DNA of 57,178 nucleotides from Piscinibacter sp. (lineage in GTDB: Bacteria > Pseudomonadota > Gammaproteobacteria > Burkholderiales > Burkholderiaceae_C), in assembly GCA_019635485.1 (NCBI GenBank), contig JAHBZL010000035.1, forward strand, positions 1 to 57,178, given 5' to 3'. How positions within the stretch are numbered: the stretch's first letter is position 1; each line of letters starts with the position of its first letter. The position numbers and the translations under genes are program-made. The notes below the pieces were generated by a model. The model made no database searches, had not been told where the DNA came from, and saw only the letters and a list, made by a program, of their open reading frames with translations. Positions 9,857 through 53,402 of this stretch are shown here, one piece after another.

Positions 9857-12592
9857 GTGAGCCCGAGCTTCGCCTTCACCAAGATCCAGGCCCCGCGCCA
9901 GCGCGCCGGGCTGGTCGAACGCGGGCCGCTGCAAGCGCGGCTGGGCGACGCGCTGGCCACGCAGCGGGTCGTGCTGCTGTGCGCCCCGGCGGGCTTCGGC
10001 AAGACCGCGCTGCTGTCCGCGACGCTGGCCAGCCTGGTCCCTGCAGTGCCGGCCGCCTGGGTCTCGCTGGACGAGGACGACGACCTGCAGCGCCTGCTGG
10101 CCTGCTTGGTCGCGGCGCTCGAGCCCTTCGATCTGCCCTGGCGGACCGCGCCGGAGGCGCTCGTCGCGCTGGCCGGCGGGAGCCGCGCCGACCGCCGCCA
10201 GAGCGTCGACGCGGTGATCAACGCGCTCGCCGCCGCGGATGCACCGCACGCGCTGCTCGCGCTCGACGATCTGCACCGGATCACCGATCCCACCGCCTTC
10301 GAATGGCTCGACGCCTTGATCGAGCGCCTGCCGCCGGCCTGGACCGTCGCGCTGTCCACCCGGGCCGAGCCGCCGCTGGCACTGCCGCGCTGGCGCGCCG
10401 CGGGCGACCTCGCCGAGTTTCGTGAACCGGACCTGCGCTTCACGCCCGAAGAGGTGCACTCGCTCGGTCGTCTGGCCGGCGCGTCGAGCCTCGCCCTGGC
10501 GGCGGACGACATCGACCTGCTGCTGGCGCGCACCGGCGGCTGGGTGGCCGGGCTGCGCCTGGCATTGCGGGCACCCGCCGGCGAAGGGCTGGCGTGGTCG
10601 CACGCCGGCAGCGCACTGGACCGCCACGCCTTCGACTACCTGGCCAGCGAGGTCCTCGACGAGCTGCCGGACGATCTGCGGCGCTTCCTGCTGCGCTGCT
10701 CGGTGCTCCCGGAACTGAGCGCGGCCCGCTGCGAGGACCTGCTCGGCGAGCCCGGCGCGGGCCGTCACCTGGCCGAGATCGAACGCCGCGGCCTGTTCGC
10801 CTCGGTGCTCGACGACGGCGCACTGGCCCTGCGCCTGCACGACCTGTTTCGGGACTTCCTGGAGGATCGCCTGCGCCGCGAGGCCCCGCAGGATTGGCCG
10901 TTGCTGCTGCGCCGCGCCGCGGCCAGCGAGCCCGACGATGCCCGCCGGGTGGGCGGCCTGCTGCGCGCCGGCGACTGGGCCGGCGCGGAGGCCGCCCTGG
11001 ATGCGGTGGCACGCGACTGGCTCGGCGCCGGCCTGGTGGCGCAGACGCGCCGCCTGCTCGAGCAGTTCCCGCCCGAATGGCAGGCGAAGTCGGCGCGGCT
11101 CGCGCTCCTGCAGGGGCTGGCCGCCTGGGCGGCGTGGGAATTCGTCGCGATGGACGAGCACTTCGAACGCGCCCACCGGATCGCGGCGGCCGCGGGCGAG
11201 CGCGACATGGCCCTGCGCACACGCGCCTACCAGGCGCTCGGCCACTGCCAGATGGACCGGCGCGAGGCGGCCGCCGACGCGCTGGCCGAGCTGCGTGCCC
11301 AGCCGCTGCCGGACGATGTCGCGATCACGATGCTGACCGCGGCGCTCTGGTACGCCGGCGACTACGGCCCGGCCGGGCATGCGGCGGCCTGCATCGAGGA
11401 GCGCAATCGGCTGCTGCTGCGCGTCGACGACGCCAGCCTCTGGTACCAGGCGACGCCGAACCCGCGCGACATCATGCTGCCCGGTACGCGGCTGCCGCTG
11501 CGCACCTTCATCGACGGTGCGCTGGCACAGCCCGGCGAGCGGGCCACGCCGCTGCGGGCCATCGCCACCCTGATGCAGGGCCTGATCGCCCTGTGGGAAG
11601 GTGACGCCGTGCTGGCCGCGCAGCGGCTGGCCGAAGCCGAAGGCGCCGCGCGCTGGCTGGGTCGGCCGCGCAACGTGTGCACGCTGCTCGCCCTCGCCCG
11701 CGGCTGGCAGCACGCCCTGTGCGGCGACCTCGACGCCTGCCGCGCCGCGATGGACGAACTGCTGGCCGATCCGGACCGCGAGCCGCCCGGGCCGCGCCAG
11801 CAGAAGCTGCGCCGCTACATGCAGGGGCAGGCGCTGCGGCTGGCGATGACCGCCGGTGACGCCGAGACCGCACGGCACCTCGTCGCGGCCCTCGGCAACG
11901 GGCAGGCGCCTGGCAGTGAACGCATCGCCCAGCGGGCACGCGAGGCGGTGCTGCCGGCGTTCGCGGCCGAACTCGCCCAGGACTGGCCGGCGGCCGCGCG
12001 CGCCTGGCAGGCCGCGCTGGCCGATCCCGGCGGCCTCGAGTGGTACGGCCTGCGCACCGACGGCCAGCTGCGCGCAGCGGCGGCCTGCCTGCGCTGCGGC
12101 GACCCGCGCACGGCCGAGGCGCTGGTCGAGCAGGCCCGGGCGCGCTGCGCCGCCGATGGCTGGGCCGGTCCGGCGCTGCTGGCCGGCCCCGCGGTGCTCG
12201 CCGTCCTGGCCGAGGGCCTGGCGGCCACGTCCGTGCACGCCGTGCTGGCCGCCTGGCTGGCGGCGGCTCAGCGTCTGCGTCGCCCGCGCCTGGCCGACGC
12301 GGCGCCGCTGCGCGCGGCCTGGCCGCTGCCGGGCGACGCGCTGCCCTCCGCCAATCCGGCATCGGTCCCCTCGGCCATCCCGCGGCCGCCGGCCGACCAT
12401 GACCTGAGCCAGCGCGAGTGCGAGGTGCTCGACCGCATCGCCGCCGGCGACAGCAACAAGGTGATCGCACGCGCGTTCGGGCTCAGCCCGCATACCGTCA
12501 AGCGGCACGTGGCCAACATCCTGGACAAGCTCGGGCTGGCCTCGCGCGGACAGGCTGCCGCGTGGTGGCGCTCGCGCGGCGGCGGCGGATGA
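9857..12592 (+). CDS. MalT-like LuxR family ATPase regulator, copy 1
   Basis: 911 residues with the signal-transduction ATPase (STAND) layout of MalT: an N-terminal NTPase with Walker A CAPAGFGKT (about 42-50) and Walker B ALLALDDLH, an arginine/proline element PPLALPRWR, a winged-helix region, a long helical tetratricopeptide-like sensor domain (about 350-800), and a C-terminal LuxR helix-turn-helix of about 60 residues (LSQRECEVLDRIAAGDS, SPHTVKRHV). Such proteins bind a ligand in the sensor domain, oligomerise with ATP and activate transcription. GTG 9857 was chosen because the protein then begins like its downstream paralogue (FAxTKIQxPR); the open frame upstream overlaps marC antisense and is not real. 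A second copy follows 16 bases later. The ligand is unknown. Confidence 0.9.
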   Translation: MSPSFAFTKIQAPRQRAGLVERGPLQARLGDALATQRVVLLCAPAGFGKTALLSATLASLVPAVPAAWVSLDEDDDLQRLLACLVAALEPFDLPWRTAPEALVALAGGSRADRRQSVDAVINALAAADAPHALLALDDLHRITDPTAFEWLDALIERLPPAWTVALSTRAEPPLALPRWRAAGDLAEFREPDLRFTPEEVHSLGRLAGASSLALAADDIDLLLARTGGWVAGLRLALRAPAGEGLAWSHAGSALDRHAFDYLASEVLDELPDDLRRFLLRCSVLPELSAARCEDLLGEPGAGRHLAEIERRGLFASVLDDGALALRLHDLFRDFLEDRLRREAPQDWPLLLRRAAASEPDDARRVGGLLRAGDWAGAEAALDAVARDWLGAGLVAQTRRLLEQFPPEWQAKSARLALLQGLAAWAAWEFVAMDEHFERAHRIAAAAGERDMALRTRAYQALGHCQMDRREAAADALAELRAQPLPDDVAITMLTAALWYAGDYGPAGHAAACIEERNRLLLRVDDASLWYQATPNPRDIMLPGTRLPLRTFIDGALAQPGERATPLRAIATLMQGLIALWEGDAVLAAQRLAEAEGAARWLGRPRNVCTLLALARGWQHALCGDLDACRAAMDELLADPDREPPGPRQQKLRRYMQGQALRLAMTAGDAETARHLVAALGNGQAPGSERIAQRAREAVLPAFAAELAQDWPAAARAWQAALADPGGLEWYGLRTDGQLRAAAACLRCGDPRTAEALVEQARARCAADGWAGPALLAGPAVLAVLAEGLAATSVHAVLAAWLAAAQRLRRPRLADAAPLRAAWPLPGDALPSANPASVPSAIPRPPADHDLSQRECEVLDRIAAGDSNKVIARAFGLSPHTVKRHVANILDKLGLASRGQAAAWWRSRGGGG

Positions 12593-48138: not shown

Positions 48139-48547
48139 GGCGTGCAGTGATTCGAGGGCGCGGTCCGGCCGCGCACGGGGCGCCGATGCTACCAAGCCCG
48201 CCCGCCCCACTCGTGCGCCGGCGCTGGGCGCCGTGCTCGGCCTTTGTGCGCCCGGGTGCGCCCCGTTGCAGCGCATCGGCACCGCCGTCGCTCCTGGCCA
48301 TCGCAAAGCCGTGCGGCGCCACACCAAACCGGTGAGTTTCGCGATCGAAGCTCATGGCACAGCGCTTGCAACTCGGCGCCCATCCGGGTCGCTCGCGGCC
48401 CGGCTGCGGCAACGACGCCGCAGTGCCTGACGCGCCACGGCATCGTCCGCCGGCAGCGCGTGCGAGATCAGAGGCGATCTCCTGCTGGGTCCTTGGTCGG
48501 CGTGTCGGCAACGACATGCCGGAAGAGCCTTCGACGAGGAGAGACGC
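48139..48547. other. 409-base intergenic region between parC and the redox cluster
   Basis: No gene is supported here; the frames that cross it are antisense or extension noise. The parC promoter must lie in its first part (a TAGCAT box on the minus strand near 48190 is a weak candidate). The plus-strand side holds a sigma-54 promoter at 48355-48370, giving a leader of about 165 bases before the Shine-Dalgarno GAGGAG (48536-48541). GGTGC near 48255 and GCACC near 48280 make a loose inverted pair upstream of the promoter that could be part of an enhancer. Confidence 0.6.
48355..48370 (+). promoter_or_regulatory. Sigma-54 (-24/-12) promoter of the redox cluster
   Basis: TGGCAC at 48355-48360 and TTGCA at 48366-48370 are separated by five bases. 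The invariant GG (48356-48357) and GC (48368-48369) are exactly ten bases apart, as RpoN promoters require. It is the right way round for the gene at 48548 and lies in the longest gap of the window. Transcription should start near 48381 and depend on an enhancer-binding protein encoded elsewhere. Confidence 0.75.
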
Positions 48548-50506
48548 ATGCCCGACGCCCCCCCCGCGTCCGAGCAGGCACCGATCGTGATCGTCGGCGC
48601 CGGCCCGGTCGGCGTCCGCTGCGCGCAGGAACTGCGCCGGCGCGATCCGGCCGTTCCGATCGTCGTCTATGGCACCGAGGCCTGGCAGCCGTACAACCGC
48701 GTCAAGCTGTCCTCGCTGCTCGCAGGCGACAGCGCCTGGAGCGAGCTGACCGACGGCCTGGCGCTGCCCGACGACATCGAACTGCGCCTCGGCTGCAGCG
48801 TGCTGGCGATCGACCGCGAGCGCCGCACGGTGAGCGACAGCACGCGCCGCGTGCAGCCCTACGCGGACCTGGTGCTGGCCACCGGCTCGCGTCCGCACGT
48901 GCCGGACGTGCCCGGCATCGGCCAGGCGCATGTCTACGTCTTCCGCGACCTCGACGACGCGCAGGCGCTGGTGGCGCGGCGCGCGCGCAGCCGCCGCACG
49001 GTGGTGATCGGCGGCGGCCTGCTCGGCCTCGAGGCCGCGCGCGCGATGCAGCGCCTCAACACGGAAGTCTGGGTGATCGAGCACGGCCCGCGCCTGCTCG
49101 GCCACCAGCTCGACGAGCCCGGTGCGCAGCTGCTCGCCGCGCACGCGCGCCGGCAGGGCCTGCAGGTGCTGACCGGCGAACGGGTCAAGGCGATCAACGG
49201 GCATGGCTCGGTGACCGGTGTGACGCTGCGCAGCGGCGAACGCATCGACTGCGACACGGTGATCGTCGCCGCCGGCATCCGGCCGAACGTCGAGCTGGCG
49301 CTCGACGCCGGGCTTCCGATCGGCCGCGGCGTGCGCGTCGACGACCGCATGGCCAGTGCCGATCCGCATGTGTTCGCGATCGGCGAATGCGCCGAGCACC
49401 GCGGGCGCGTCTACGGCCTGCTGGCGCCGGGCCTCGAGCAGGCGGCCGTGGCCGCGCACAGCCTGCTCGGCGGCACGTCGCGCTACCAGGGTTCGCTGGT
49501 GGCGACGCGCCTGAAGGTGCTGGACCTTCCGCTGTTCTCGATCGGCGAGGTGGAGGTCGACGTGGCGACCGCCGGCCGGCGCCTGCGCAGCGTCGACCAC
49601 GATGCCGACGGCGTGCACCGCCGCCTGGTCCTCGAGCGGGGGCGCCTGATCGGCGCGCTCGCCGTCGGGCCCTGTGCCGAGATGGGCCGCCTGCAGGAAG
49701 CGACGCTCGCGCAGCGCCGCATCCGCCCCTGGCAGGCCTGGCGCTTCCGGCGGCGCGGCGCGCCGTGGGGCGAAGCGGCCGCCGGCGCCAGCGTGCTGCA
49801 CTGGCCCGGGCCGGCGATCGTCTGCAACTGCAATGGCGTGACGCGCGCCCAGCTCGGCGACGCGCTGGCCGGCGGCTGCCGCAGCGTCGCCGAGCTGAGC
49901 GCCTGCACCCGCGCCGGCAGCGTGTGCGGCTCGTGCAAGCCGCTGCTCGCCGAACTCGCCGGCGCGCCCGCCGCCCCGGTGCCGACCGCCTGGGGCCTGG
50001 GCAGCCTGGCCGGCGTCGCGGCACTCGCCGCACTGCTGTTCCTGCTGCTGCCCGGCGTCGGCTACCAGCTCAGCGTGCAGGAGCCGCTGAACTGGGACCG
50101 CCTGTGGCGCGACGGCCTGTTCAAGCAGGTGAGCGGCTTCACGCTGCTCGCGCTGAGTGTCGCCGCCGTCGTGCTCGGGCTGCGCAAGCGCGTGCCGCGC
50201 TTCACGCTCGGCCGCTTCGACCTCTGGCGGCTGGTGCACGTCGCCATCGGCGCCTCGACGCTGCTGGTCCTGCTGGCCCACACCGGCGGCCGCATTGGCC
50301 ACGCGCTGAACATGAGCCTGGTGCTGTTCTACGGCGGCCTGCTGCTGCTCGGCGCGCTCGCCGCCGGGACGATCGCCTTCGAGGGCCGGCTGCCGGCCCG
50401 CGCGGTGCGCGCCTGGCGCGAGAAGTCGGTGTGGCTGCACATCCTGCTGTTCTGGCCCGTGCCGGTGCTGCTGGGCCTGCACGTGCTGAAGACCTACTTC
50501 TACTGA
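48548..50506 (+). CDS. FAD/NAD(P)H oxidoreductase fused to BFD [2Fe-2S] and diheme-b-like membrane domain
   Basis: 652 residues. 1-400: NirB-like pyridine-nucleotide oxidoreductase with FAD motif IVGAGPVG (15-22) and NAD(P) motif GGGLLG (155-160), and the second FAD motif near 288 (VFAIGECAEH). 420-475: BFD-type [2Fe-2S] domain with Cys426, 428, 460 and 463. 480-652: about five membrane helices; two of them carry histidine pairs 14 residues apart (His564/578 and His631/645), the arrangement that holds two b haems in ferric-reductase-like proteins. There is no sirohaem or siroheme-Fe4S4 domain, so it is not a complete NirB. It should carry electrons from cytoplasmic NAD(P)H through the membrane to the cytochromes encoded next. 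Confidence 0.85.
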   Translation: MPDAPPASEQAPIVIVGAGPVGVRCAQELRRRDPAVPIVVYGTEAWQPYNRVKLSSLLAGDSAWSELTDGLALPDDIELRLGCSVLAIDRERRTVSDSTRRVQPYADLVLATGSRPHVPDVPGIGQAHVYVFRDLDDAQALVARRARSRRTVVIGGGLLGLEAARAMQRLNTEVWVIEHGPRLLGHQLDEPGAQLLAAHARRQGLQVLTGERVKAINGHGSVTGVTLRSGERIDCDTVIVAAGIRPNVELALDAGLPIGRGVRVDDRMASADPHVFAIGECAEHRGRVYGLLAPGLEQAAVAAHSLLGGTSRYQGSLVATRLKVLDLPLFSIGEVEVDVATAGRRLRSVDHDADGVHRRLVLERGRLIGALAVGPCAEMGRLQEATLAQRRIRPWQAWRFRRRGAPWGEAAAGASVLHWPGPAIVCNCNGVTRAQLGDALAGGCRSVAELSACTRAGSVCGSCKPLLAELAGAPAAPVPTAWGLGSLAGVAALAALLFLLLPGVGYQLSVQEPLNWDRLWRDGLFKQVSGFTLLALSVAAVVLGLRKRVPRFTLGRFDLWRLVHVAIGASTLLVLLAHTGGRIGHALNMSLVLFYGGLLLLGALAAGTIAFEGRLPARAVRAWREKSVWLHILLFWPVPVLLGLHVLKTYFY

Positions 50507-50515
50507 GGCCGACGA

Positions 50516-51994
50516 ATGTCACGTGCGCGTCGCTGGTGGCTGGGCTGGTCGGTGCTGAGCGTGCTGCTCGCGGCGCTGTTCGGCGCCGCGCTGTGGACAC
50601 CCGGGGTCGCCGCGGTGCCGGTGCTGGCCCAGGTGCGCAGCTGGCTGCAGCCGGGGCCCATGACCCACGGCCACCACCAGATCGAGCTCGCCTGCGAGGC
50701 CTGCCACGGCCAACCCTTCGCCGGTGCGGCGGCGCTGCAGGAGGCCTGCGTCGGCTGCCACGGCGCGGCGCTGAAGGAAGCCGACGACAAGCACCCGGCG
50801 AGCAAGTTCGAGGACCCGCGCAACGCGTTCCGCCTCGAGCGCATCGACGCCGTGCGCTGCGTCACCTGCCACGTCGAGCACCGGCCGGAGACCACGCATG
50901 CGATGGGGGTCACGCAGCCGGGCGACTACTGCGCGCATTGCCACGCCGGCAAGGACGAGATGCCCGCCGACCATGCCGGCTTCCCGTTCGACGGCTGTGC
51001 CTCGGCCGGCTGCCACAACTACCACGACAACCGGGCGCTGTACGAGGACTTCCTGCTGCGCCACGCCGACCAGCCGGAAATGCTGCCCAAGACGCTGCTG
51101 CGTGCCCGCGCGCTCGGCGAGGACCTGATGGCGAGCATGGCCTACCCGCAGGCGCGCTACCCGTTCGAGGCGCTGGACGCGACGCGCGTCGACGCCCCGC
51201 CGGCCGCGCGCCAGGAGACCGCGGTCGCGGACTGGCTGGCCTCGCGCCACGCGCAGGCCGGCGTGAACTGCAGCGCCTGCCACGTGCCGGGCACCACGCT
51301 GACCGAAGGCGCCAGCGCCCCGGCCGCCGCCGGCCGGTGGGTCGATCGCCCCACGCTGCCCGGGGCCTGCAACGGCTGCCACGTCGAGGAGGTGCGCGAC
51401 TTCCAGGGCGGCCTGCACGGCATGCGCCTGGCCCAGAAGCTCGGTCCGATGACACCGGCGCTGGCGCGCCTGCCGATGCGCCGCGACGCAGGTCACGCCG
51501 ATCCGTCGCACGCGCAGCTCGACTGCGCGACCTGCCACGCGCCGCACCGCCCGGACCTGCGCCGCGCCGCCGTCGAAGCGTGCCTCGGCTGCCACGCCGA
51601 CCGGCACTCGCTCGCCTTCGAAGGCACGCCGCACGAACGCCTGTGGCGCAAGGAACTCAGCGGCGAGGCGCCGGCCGGCAGCGGCGTCAGCTGCGCGAGC
51701 TGCCACATGCCGCGCGAGAAGCTGATCACCGCCGACGGCGCGCGCTACGGCGTGCAGCACAACCAGAGCGCGACGCTGCAGCCCAACGAGAAGATGCTGC
51801 GCCCGGTCTGCATGAACTGCCACGGCCTCGCGTTCTCGATCGACGCGCTGGCCGATCCGGCGCTGATCGAGCGCAATTTCGCCGGCCGCCCGGCCCGCCA
51901 CGTCGAGAGCATCGACATGGCCCTCGCCAAGGACCGCGCGCACCGCGCCGCCAAGACCCCCGCTTCCCAGCCCGAAAGGAGAGAGAGCCCATGA
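50516..51994 (+). CDS. Membrane-anchored undecahaem cytochrome c
   Basis: 492 residues. An uncleaved N-terminal helix (about 9-28) anchors it facing the periplasm. There are ten CxxCH haem motifs, at 60, 78, 115, 139, 252, 285, 337, 356, 393 and 432, plus one CX4CH (CASAGCH, 161-167), as found in some c3-type cytochromes. Extra histidines suit bis-His ligation. A haem-poor gap of 85 residues separates five N-terminal from six C-terminal motifs, suggesting two modules. The last part (CASCHMPREK, then HNQS) has a flavour of multihaem nitrite or hydroxylamine enzymes, but no catalytic CxxCK is present. It likely takes electrons from the upstream fusion protein. Its stop overlaps the DUF3365 start. 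Confidence 0.88.
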   Translation: MSRARRWWLGWSVLSVLLAALFGAALWTPGVAAVPVLAQVRSWLQPGPMTHGHHQIELACEACHGQPFAGAAALQEACVGCHGAALKEADDKHPASKFEDPRNAFRLERIDAVRCVTCHVEHRPETTHAMGVTQPGDYCAHCHAGKDEMPADHAGFPFDGCASAGCHNYHDNRALYEDFLLRHADQPEMLPKTLLRARALGEDLMASMAYPQARYPFEALDATRVDAPPAARQETAVADWLASRHAQAGVNCSACHVPGTTLTEGASAPAAAGRWVDRPTLPGACNGCHVEEVRDFQGGLHGMRLAQKLGPMTPALARLPMRRDAGHADPSHAQLDCATCHAPHRPDLRRAAVEACLGCHADRHSLAFEGTPHERLWRKELSGEAPAGSGVSCASCHMPREKLITADGARYGVQHNQSATLQPNEKMLRPVCMNCHGLAFSIDALADPALIERNFAGRPARHVESIDMALAKDRAHRAAKTPASQPERRESP

Positions 51995-52560
51995 AGACGA
52001 CCCTGATCCGTTCCGCCTGCCTGAGCCTGTGCGGTGCCGCCGCCCTGACGCTGGCCGCCGGCGCCCGCGCGCAGTCGATCTCGCCGAAACAGATGGCCGA
52101 CGCGCTGCACGCCGTGATGGCCGCCGACCGCACGGTCTACACGCGGCTGATCGTGAACCGCCTGCAGAACGAGGAGAAGCTGCTCAAGGCGACCGAGCAC
52201 TGGAAGGACGAGAAGACGCTGGTGCTGCCGGCGCAGATGTTCCGCTACGGCTCCGAGGAGGTCGCGAAGACCAACAAGGACTTCAGCTACTCGCTGCTCT
52301 CGTCCTGGCCGGTCAACAAGCAGAACGCGCCGCGCACGCCGGTCGAGAAGGAAGGCCTGGAATCCGTCGCCAAGACGCCCGCGCAGCCGTTCTACAAGGA
52401 GGAGACGCTGGGCGGCAAGAAGTACTTCACCGCCGTCTACGCCGACCGCGCCGTCGCGCCGGCCTGCGTCACCTGCCACAACGACCACAAGGACAGCCCG
52501 CGCAAGGACTTCAAGATCGGCGACACGATGGGCGGCGTGGTCATCCGCATCCCGATCTGA
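51991..52560 (+). CDS. DUF3365 monohaem periplasmic protein (Tll0287-like)
   Basis: 189 residues with a signal peptide (cleavage after GARAQ). The mature part is a PAS-like DUF3365 domain whose single haem motif is CVTCH near residue 160, followed by NDHKDSP and FKIGDTMGGVVI, the usual context in this family. Members are c-type haem sensors or electron carriers; the cyanobacterial protein Tll0287 is one with a known structure. ATG 51991 overlaps the preceding stop (ATGA) and has AAGGAGAG as ribosome-binding site, so translation is coupled. Its place among cytochromes makes either a carrier or a ligand-sensing role plausible. Confidence 0.88.
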   Translation: MKTTLIRSACLSLCGAAALTLAAGARAQSISPKQMADALHAVMAADRTVYTRLIVNRLQNEEKLLKATEHWKDEKTLVLPAQMFRYGSEEVAKTNKDFSYSLLSSWPVNKQNAPRTPVEKEGLESVAKTPAQPFYKEETLGGKKYFTAVYADRAVAPACVTCHNDHKDSPRKDFKIGDTMGGVVIRIPI

Positions 52561-52561
52561 G

Positions 52562-52930
52562 ATGACCACGCTGCGCCTCGCGCTGGGCGCCGCGCTGCTC
52601 GCGGTCGTCGTGCTGCCGGCTGCGGCGGCCGACGACGAGCAGGCCTTCCCGCGCTTCGCCGACGACCGCGGCGACCGCGGCCGCACGGTCTGGCTCGGCA
52701 CCTGCCGCGCCTGCCACGGCGAAGGCTTCGCCGACGCGCCCGCGGTCGGCGACCGCGCCGCCTGGGCGCCGCGCGTGGCCAAGGGCAAGCCGGTGCTCTA
52801 CGAGCATGCGCTGAAGGGCTTCTTCGGCCCGGCCAGCCAGATGATGCCGCCGCGCGGCGGCAACCCGGCCCTCAGCGACGAGGAAGTGCGCCTGGCCGTC
52901 GACTACATGGTCCGACTCGTCACCCGTTGA
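52562..52930 (+). CDS. Cytochrome c5-like monohaem cytochrome
   Basis: 122 residues. A signal peptide ends AAAADDE. The haem motif is CRACH (near residue 49) and the distal Met is in QMMPPRGGNPALSDEE, the hallmark of c5/c555 cytochromes, followed by VRLAVDYMV. It is a soluble periplasmic electron carrier. It starts one base after the DUF3365 stop and is therefore in the same transcript. It could link the multihaem protein to the general respiratory chain or to a terminal reductase. Confidence 0.92.
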   Translation: MTTLRLALGAALLAVVVLPAAAADDEQAFPRFADDRGDRGRTVWLGTCRACHGEGFADAPAVGDRAAWAPRVAKGKPVLYEHALKGFFGPASQMMPPRGGNPALSDEEVRLAVDYMVRLVTR

Positions 52931-52960
52931 TCCACCCCCAACCCTGAAAGGGAACCCGCC

Positions 52961-53377
52961 ATGACCCCGCAACAGATCGCCCTCGTCCAGTCGTCCTGGC
53001 AGAAGGTCGTGCCGATCAAGGAGAAGGCCGCCGAGCTGTTCTACGGCAAGCTGTTCGAGCTCGACCCCACGCTGAAGCCGCTCTTCAAGGGCGACATGAC
53101 CGAGCAGGGCCGCAAGCTGATGGGCATCATCAACACCGCCGTCGGCAGCCTGACCAACCTGGGCGCGATCGTCCCGGCCGTGCAGGAGATGGGCAAGCGC
53201 CACGTCGGCTACGGCGTCAAGGACGCGCACTACGACACGGTGGCCGCCGCGCTGCTGTGGACGCTGGGCGCCGGCCTGGGCGACGCCTTCACCGACGAGG
53301 TGAAGGCCGCCTGGACCGAGACCTACGTGACGCTGGCCACCGTGATGAAGCAGGCCGCCGCGACCGTGCCGGCCTGA
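52961..53377 (+). CDS. Single-domain bacterial globin (Vitreoscilla type)
   Basis: 138 residues, one globin domain with no reductase part. The proximal haem ligand is His81 in KRHVGYGVKDAHY, matching Vitreoscilla haemoglobin His85 by context, and the distal position is probably Gln49. It is cytoplasmic (no signal). Such globins bind O2 or NO and can act as NO dioxygenases with an external reductase; the cluster's first gene offers an FAD/NAD(P)H candidate. AAAGGG lies seven bases before the ATG. It is the last gene of the cluster, 30 bases after the cytochrome c5 gene. Confidence 0.93.
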   Translation: MTPQQIALVQSSWQKVVPIKEKAAELFYGKLFELDPTLKPLFKGDMTEQGRKLMGIINTAVGSLTNLGAIVPAVQEMGKRHVGYGVKDAHYDTVAAALLWTLGAGLGDAFTDEVKAAWTETYVTLATVMKQAAATVPA

Positions 53378-53385
53378 GCGCCCGC

Positions 53386-53402
53386 GCCGGGCTCAGCCCG
53401 GC
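53386..53402. terminator. Bidirectional terminator-like hairpin between globin and GNAT
   Basis: A 7-bp perfect stem (53386-53392 with 53396-53402) has a 3-base loop. The loop, TCA, is exactly the stop codon of the minus-strand GNAT gene, so the element lies at the 3' ends of two convergent transcripts. It has no T-tract. Confidence 0.45.

Follow-up and report, generated by a model that had tools for sequence, protein, structure and literature searches.

A five-gene flavocytochrome, multihaem cytochrome and globin cluster from Piscinibacter, tied in many genomes to nitrate-assimilation genes: a possible accessory module of nitrate assimilation

As described in the excerpts of the source used here, the narK-bjgb-flp-nasC operon of Bradyrhizobium japonicum, a NasT-controlled nitrate-assimilation (nas) operon, encodes a haemoglobin (Bjgb) and a flavoprotein (Flp) that protect against the nitric oxide (NO) arising from nitrate assimilation (PMC4724949). 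The regulation of nas genes is likewise known from excerpted accounts: in Paracoccus they are under a double switch, with nitrogen acting through NtrC and nitrate through NasT-dependent antitermination (PMC5424462), and the ANTAR motif rule calls for hairpins with a hexaloop whose first base is A and whose fourth is G (PMC3369931). Here we describe a five-gene electron-transfer cluster in a 57,178-nucleotide stretch of a Piscinibacter genome (contig JAHBZL010000035.1, positions 1 to 57,178, the whole of which is termed the window). Comparison across genomes shows that its core of three genes (g1-g2-g3), usually with a globin gene, is tied in many genomes to nas, nrt and nir genes, a sigma-54 promoter and an ANTAR/NasT-type leader. 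Our best reading, at about even odds, is that the cluster is an accessory module of nitrate assimilation that exports electrons from NAD(P)H and removes NO in both compartments.

The nas control and the globin-flavoprotein partnership are already known, and the likeness to the Bradyrhizobium operon lies in a single-domain haemoglobin and an NAD(P)H flavoprotein encoded with nitrate-assimilation genes, near an NrtABC-type transporter and under NasS-NasT control. The differences are that Flp is a typical cytoplasmic NAD(P)H oxidoreductase, that nasC is part of the same operon, and that the excerpted account mentions no transmembrane b haems and no multihaem or Tll0287-like cytochromes (PMC4724949). 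Among the matches listed from the open PubMed Central literature, we met neither a description of the gene combination nor a NirB-type flavocytochrome that spans the membrane and works in such a role together with an 11-haem wire and a Tll0287-like protein; the excerpts of papers on Gallionellaceae and Idiomarina do not describe the cluster either. The features of the locus are as follows:

48355-48369, + strand: sigma-54 (-24/-12) promoter TGGCACAGCGCTTGC, exact consensus
48404-48423, + strand: first leader hairpin, ANTAR-type hexaloop AACGAC (A at 1, G at 4), in the minimum-energy fold
48464-48481, + strand: second leader hairpin, ANTAR-type hexaloop AGAGGC (A at 1, G at 4), from the hexaloop scan
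48548-50506, + strand: g1, open reading frame of 652 residues
50516-51994, + strand: g2, open reading frame of 492 residues; membrane-anchored 11-haem c-type cytochrome, by haem motifs, invariant His and distant profile similarity
51991-52560, + strand: g3, open reading frame of 189 residues; exported Tll0287-like (DUF3365) monohaem c protein, by Pfam, orthologues and signal regions
52562-52930, + strand: g4, open reading frame of 122 residues; exported class-I monohaem cytochrome c, by Pfam Cytochrome_CBB3/Cytochrom_C
52961-53377, + strand: globin, open reading frame of 138 residues

A first-pass annotation, made from the letters of this DNA, had proposed five closely packed genes on one strand behind a sigma-54 promoter: a fusion of flavin adenine dinucleotide (FAD), [2Fe-2S] and dihaem-b domains, an 11-haem cytochrome, a DUF3365 haem protein, a further cytochrome and a globin. 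This holds in each part. The order (48548-53377, + strand) has intervals of 9, -4, 1 and 30 bases (g1/g2, g2/g3, g3/g4 and g4/globin), Pfam domains and four invariant His agree with the make-up of g1, Pfam and haem-motif counts agree with g2, g3 and the globin, and the count of 13 periplasmic c haems is reached by 11 in g2 and one each in g3 and g4.

The cluster is rare and widely scattered. The g2 gene occurs in 2 of 149 relatives and 5 of 399 genomes of the order (own genome included in both), in 27 of 369 genomes of a class sample around Spongiibacter (Spongiibacter included) and in 7 of 392 of a phylum sample around Rhodopirellula (Rhodopirellula included). Altogether 41 bearing genomes were found, including those of loci L005 and L006, which were reached by a g1 scan of genome contigs. 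Flanks were obtained for 38 of the 40 bearing genomes other than that of the window; they gave 39 loci, with L007 and L184 coinciding, and hence 38 distinct ones. In 37 of these 38, g1, g2 and g3 occur together in the same order, the hosts being Burkholderiales, other Gammaproteobacteria and Planctomycetota. L176, the one place that departs from this, carries only g2, and in L168 and L177 g1 is cut by the contig end. The earlier concern that the genes might co-occur only in this genome is thereby removed. That they are chance neighbours forming no system is hardly credible and was rejected, given the same order in such distant phyla. Seven other searched genomes of the window's genus yielded no g2, and this absence together with the wide host range suggests transfer of g1-g2-g3 between hosts; the cluster is probably old and spreads by transfer. 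A search of PLSDB plasmids, made with g2 only, returned no match.

The association with nitrate assimilation emerges from the flanks, which are counted below over 37 loci (L007 and L176 being left out and the window not among them). Genes for nrtA, nrtB, nasA, nirB or nirD lie in the flanks of 15 loci and an ANTAR (NasT-type) regulator in those of 13, with either present in 18; we named the nrt, nir and nas genes from Pfam matches and our own assumed correspondence. Complete nas clusters adjoin g1-g2-g3 in genomes G137, G221 and G486. In G137 (L003, L126) the series runs from an ANTAR regulator and a sigma-54 site through g1-g2-g3-g4-globin and a second ANTAR regulator to nrtA-B-D, a major facilitator superfamily (MFS) transporter, a PP2C/kinase protein, nirB, nirD (Rieske) and nasA, the last a molybdopterin protein with a C-terminal BFD domain; the same gene set, rearranged, is found in G486 (L006/L123) and G221 (L121/L125). 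In L160 a single strand carries ANTAR, globin, g1, g2, g3, nrtA, nrtB, nrtD, nirB, nirD and nasA. The Bjgb-Flp gene order, i.e., a haemoglobin and an NAD(P)H flavoprotein amid nas genes, is matched in L160 and the nas-adjacent loci and not in the window. At the level of whole genomes, a NasA-like protein (E up to 1e-60) occurs in 37 of the 41 bearing genomes, a figure for bearing genomes only and without a background rate, and in one sample NirB scores over its cut-off in 22 of the 27 bearing genomes and in 144 of the remaining 342 (Fisher p 6.6e-5, uncorrected for relatedness). In the window's own genome the nas genes sit on contig C10, with an ANTAR gene (L122 15184-15522). A further NasA-like molybdopterin protein, more distantly related (38% identity), is encoded in that genome at G000:C42:16370-18514.

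A second line of evidence comes from the leaders upstream of g1, of which 37 were compared (the window and 36 loci, one place being represented twice; L168, L176 and L177 are without a full g1 and were left out). The sigma-54 promoter of the first-pass annotation is an exact consensus, of which this genome has 17 matches vs 3 for the reversed pattern, and it is also enriched among relatives: a site with at most one mismatch precedes g1 in 16 of 37 leaders, whereas 100 dinucleotide shuffles gave 0.45 on average and never more than 3. The window's two hexaloop hairpins lie downstream of this site. Hexaloops with A at 1 and G at 4 make up 36 of the 108 hexaloops in these leaders vs a shuffle mean of 3.9 and maximum of 9, with at least one in 22 of 37 leaders and a pair in fewer. 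In the same genome, the nitrate MFS transporter gene has tandem hexaloops of this type upstream, with loops AACGAC and AGCGAG (L122, contig C10, - strand, 14734 and 14690), so that AACGAC is common to the two leaders. Strong terminators are visible by eye in leaders such as those of L005, L154, L164, L165, L170 and L171, and a terminator scan too lax to serve as a test gives 31 of 37 leaders vs 9-15 in five mononucleotide shuffles. An NtrC-like palindrome, for which we assumed a consensus, occurs with up to two mismatches in 21 of 36 upstream regions vs a mean of 11.5 and a maximum of 17 in 60 shuffles, and is perfect in L155. A search of positions 48200-48600 against Rfam gave no family at gathering score and one weak match, RsmW (E 3). 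Parallels can be drawn, as far as the excerpts of the sources go, with NasT/NasR-controlled nas leaders: that of nasF in Klebsiella, which has A1/G4 hexaloop hairpins as here (PMC3369931), and that of nasA in Paracoccus, which is controlled in nitrate assimilation by NtrC and nitrate-responsive NasT antitermination (PMC5424462). Unlike in those cases, the genes under control here encode electron-carrying haem proteins and a globin, and the window leader is without a clear T-run terminator. The nirB gene on contig C10 has an exact sigma-54 site (11582-11596) about 25 bases before its start codon, leaving no room for such a leader.

The g1 protein combines the Pfam domains Pyr_redox_2, Rubredoxin_C and Fer2_BFD without NIR_SIR. 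Its residues 13-470 align to positions 1-464 of the 794 of the NirB model, at 383 bits, below the curated cut-off of 578 for a NirB equivalog. It has in common with the N-terminal half of NirB, the NADH dehydrogenase part of the assimilatory nitrite reductase, the FAD, NAD(P)H and BFD [2Fe-2S] domains; unlike NirB, it lacks the sirohaem half and bears a dihaem-b membrane domain at its C-terminal end. In the C-terminal 175 residues exactly four His are invariant in all 33 aligned sequences (window included), two per helix on two helices, so that two b haems are to be expected, as in dihaem-b membrane domains. The predicted fold (predicted local distance difference test, pLDDT, 70) resembles an NAD(P)H ferredoxin-reductase in its N part, and a PDB search with the b domain found no credible relative, two ribosomal proteins appearing at E 1.5-1.7. 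A replacement of NirBD by the g1 cluster was considered and ruled out, since 33 of the 41 bearing genomes (8 of 9 plus 25 of 32) have PF01077 proteins of NirB length (about 800 residues or more, judged from open frames).

The g2 protein has ten CXXCH motifs and one CX4CH, and matches Cytochrom_c3_2, Cytochrome_C7 and, weakly, Cytochrom_C552 in Pfam. Each of the 11 motifs ends in His, and another 11 His are conserved without exception in all 39 g2 sequences, enough to give every haem a pair of His ligands. The best PDB profile matches of stretches of g2 are distant ones, to octahaem nitrite reductase (TvNiR; 1.2e-9) and NrfA (1e-8), and they raise the alternative that g2 is a periplasmic ammonium-forming reductase of this kind for nitrite (or hydroxylamine or NO), fed by g1. 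We regard this as improbable. Unlike TvNiR and NrfA, g2 has 11 haems; CXXCK, which marks their catalytic haem, appears in 0 of 39 sequences, and the position of the presumed catalytic His, seven residues ahead of a CXXCH with xPK/R behind it, is His in 1 of 39 and Pro in 22 of 39, including the window. The ligand count leaves no obviously vacant haem, and other multihaem chains score nearly as well, namely 6r2q_A (4.7e-8), which we take to be the MtrA wire though it is listed under another name, and a cytochrome c7-like protein (5.7e-8), so that part of the profile score is driven by CXXCH composition. With CXXCK missing from all 39 sequences and the catalytic His from 38 of them, g2 is likelier an electron wire than an enzyme.

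Next to this presumptive wire, g3 carries the Pfam domain Tll0287-like (2.1e-21), presumably the former DUF3365, and one CXXCH. It accompanies g1 and g2 at all 37 of their common places and, by eye, is lipoprotein-like in many relatives. An alignment of 36 sequences shows many invariant Arg, Tyr and Trp, and a substrate site in g3 is therefore possible; a sequence search of the PDB found no relative of g3. The g4 protein, with one haem motif, is less constant, being present in at least 17 of 37 loci.

The globin is a single-domain PF00042 protein, which matches the model for NO-inducible flavohaemoproteins at 9.3e-21, under that model's cut-off. Its pocket is strongly conserved over 27 rows (the window and one place twice included), with Tyr28 in 27, Gln49 in 26, Leu53 in 27 and His81 in 27. 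These we take to be TyrB10, GlnE7, LeuE11 and HisF8, a set presumably typical of NO-handling bacterial globins, and the residues are those of an NO-dioxygenase-type pocket with a correspondingly predicted activity. The nearest solved structures, 3wfw (1.1e-31) and 3s1i (9.3e-29), are presumably the Methylacidiphilum (Hell's Gate) single-domain globins; unlike these, the window globin is encoded within a putative electron-transfer operon, and it has no Roadblock domain, whereas the 3wfw molecule is annotated as a Roadblock-domain fusion. A globin lies beside g1-g2-g3 in 27 of 37 loci, and in three (L005, L162 and L171, the first matching Bac_globin) the slot is filled by a truncated haemoglobin. 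This exchange of globin type suggests that the activity rather than one protein is kept. In L005 (12362-13719) and L162 (6228-7574) the gene after the truncated haemoglobin encodes a plant-type ferredoxin/NAD(P)H reductase fusion, likely a dedicated globin reductase.

Taken together, the domains, signal regions and c-haem motifs, from which the cytoplasmic or periplasmic placement of the proteins is predicted, outline a possible division of labor. NAD(P)H would reduce the FAD and [2Fe-2S] of g1, whose two b haems would carry electrons through the inner membrane into the 11-haem wire g2, and g2 would pass them to g3 (plus g4 where present) in the periplasm. The globin would be a cytoplasmic NO dioxygenase that receives its electrons from g1 or, at some loci, from a ferredoxin-type reductase of its own. 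Their joint task might be the removal of NO (and perhaps of nitrite or hydroxylamine) leaking from NasA and NirB, the globin clearing the cytoplasm and a series of low-potential haems, with g3 as its last member, the periplasm. Carrier order, direction of flow and substrate are all predicted. The route from NAD(P)H to periplasmic haems put forward in the first-pass annotation is supported as read from the domains. More tentatively, and with less confidence than the general role, the cluster might be a transmembrane enzyme of nitrate assimilation not described before, in which a NirB-derived flavocytochrome sends NAD(P)H electrons along an 11-haem wire to a haem of Tll0287 type, where periplasmic NO, nitrite or hydroxylamine is reduced, paired with the cytoplasmic globin so that both compartments are cleared of reactive nitrogen.

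The functions first suggested for the cluster fared unevenly. The nitrogen-oxide context stands, now narrowed to assimilatory nitrate by the nrt, nir and nas neighbors and the NasT/ANTAR signals, and g2 as a classical nitrite reductase is not supported. NO defense fits the globin and the Bradyrhizobium precedent, as excerpted (PMC4724949). Metal reduction finds little support and is demoted by the nas context. Its broader form, a general chain for periplasmic or extracellular electron export (to metals or for redox balance) without any particular link to nitrogen oxides, appears slightly less probable still than a g2 reductase: a multihaem wire with monohaem cytochromes does resemble export chains in outline, and Alginate_exp-family genes of outer-membrane type lie near the cluster in L158 (12664-13875) and L163 (7043-8251), but both loci also have nas genes, the nas neighborhood, ANTAR leaders and globin speak otherwise, and no extracellular decahaem partner was noticed by eye in the loci viewed, no profile search for one having been made.

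The main rival to NO removal, which we consider rather unlikely, though less so than the two preceding alternatives, is that g1 serves chiefly as the electron donor of NasA, with the haem chain drawing or exchanging electrons with a periplasmic or membrane pool and so sparing NAD(P)H. In two loci of the planctomycete sample, L179 and L180, nasA stands immediately before g1; moreover, the FAD/BFD half of NirB is common to g1, and several bearing genomes have a short NasA-like protein (about 730-760 residues) that stops short of the C-terminal extension, the part that bears the BFD [2Fe-2S] domain in the long form of G137. According to the excerpted account, Bradyrhizobium needs Flp for growth on nitrate, and Flp has been proposed as the donor of NasC (PMC4724949). 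Against this, inward flow would run from the positive to the negative side through low-potential FAD and [2Fe-2S], the globin is left unexplained, and g2 was not found in the seven other genomes of the genus, the nitrate assimilation of which was not examined. The nasA of L179 also already adjoins a likely partner, a 4Fe-4S/DmsC-type anchor fusion. This protein belongs to a pair of genes (536 and 287 residues) between nrtD and nasA in L179 (14470-16948) and L180 (14525-17014); in a domain scan on L179 the 536-residue protein is the fusion, possibly a membrane partner of NasA, and the 287-residue protein has a weak GAF match.

Returning to the proposed removal of NO by a nitrate-assimilation module, several observations weigh against it. 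The window's 57 kb contain no nas gene and no ANTAR regulator in the flanks of the cluster, and 19 of 37 flanks, several on short contigs, are without the counted nas genes or ANTAR; among these, L120 has MFS and PP2C genes, L154, L178 and L183 have weak nrtD-like (ATP-binding cassette ATPase) matches and 15 have none. Four of the 41 bearing genomes, some with fragmentary-looking assemblies, are without a NasA-like match, 5 of 27 are without NirB over the cut-off, and 10 of 37 loci have no globin nearby. In the window leader a scan found no T-run terminator, the second hexaloop is absent from the minimum-energy fold and competes with a larger one, and the NtrC-like site, with two mismatches, is no better than chance; for these reasons antitermination and NtrC control are only suggested in the window itself. 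The structure model of g2 is unusable (pLDDT 38), and a reaction of g3 with NO or another nitrogen oxide is putative. Finally, the Bradyrhizobium bjgb mutant consumed more NO, which its authors, in the excerpted text, ascribe to induced NorCB (PMC4724949).

Recurrence beside nitrate-assimilation genes and nitrate switches gives this uncharacterized cluster a testable job, and the Tll0287-like family and an uncharacterized multihaem family gain a concrete nitrogen-oxide context. The reduction of nitrate for assimilation is usually placed in the cytoplasm; a conserved gene set that joins it to a transmembrane electron exporter, with as many as 13 c haems in the periplasm and governed by the same switches for nitrogen and nitrate, suggests either a periplasmic arm of nitrate assimilation or a two-compartment defense against its toxic by-products, and if g3 or g2 proves to be an enzyme, the kind of system would be new.

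Two further observations concern the hosts and the insertion site. In the class sample, several of the bearing genomes further encode PF01077 proteins in pairs (about 420-460 and 360-390 residues), which look to us like dsrAB, so that part of the hosts may be sulfur oxidizers. In the window, the cluster is bordered by what we take to be parC on one side and a GNAT-parE pair on the other. This slot (48150-53393) is variable in the genus, with four relatives carrying 1.6 to 6 kb of other sequence there, and it may for that reason be an insertion hot spot.

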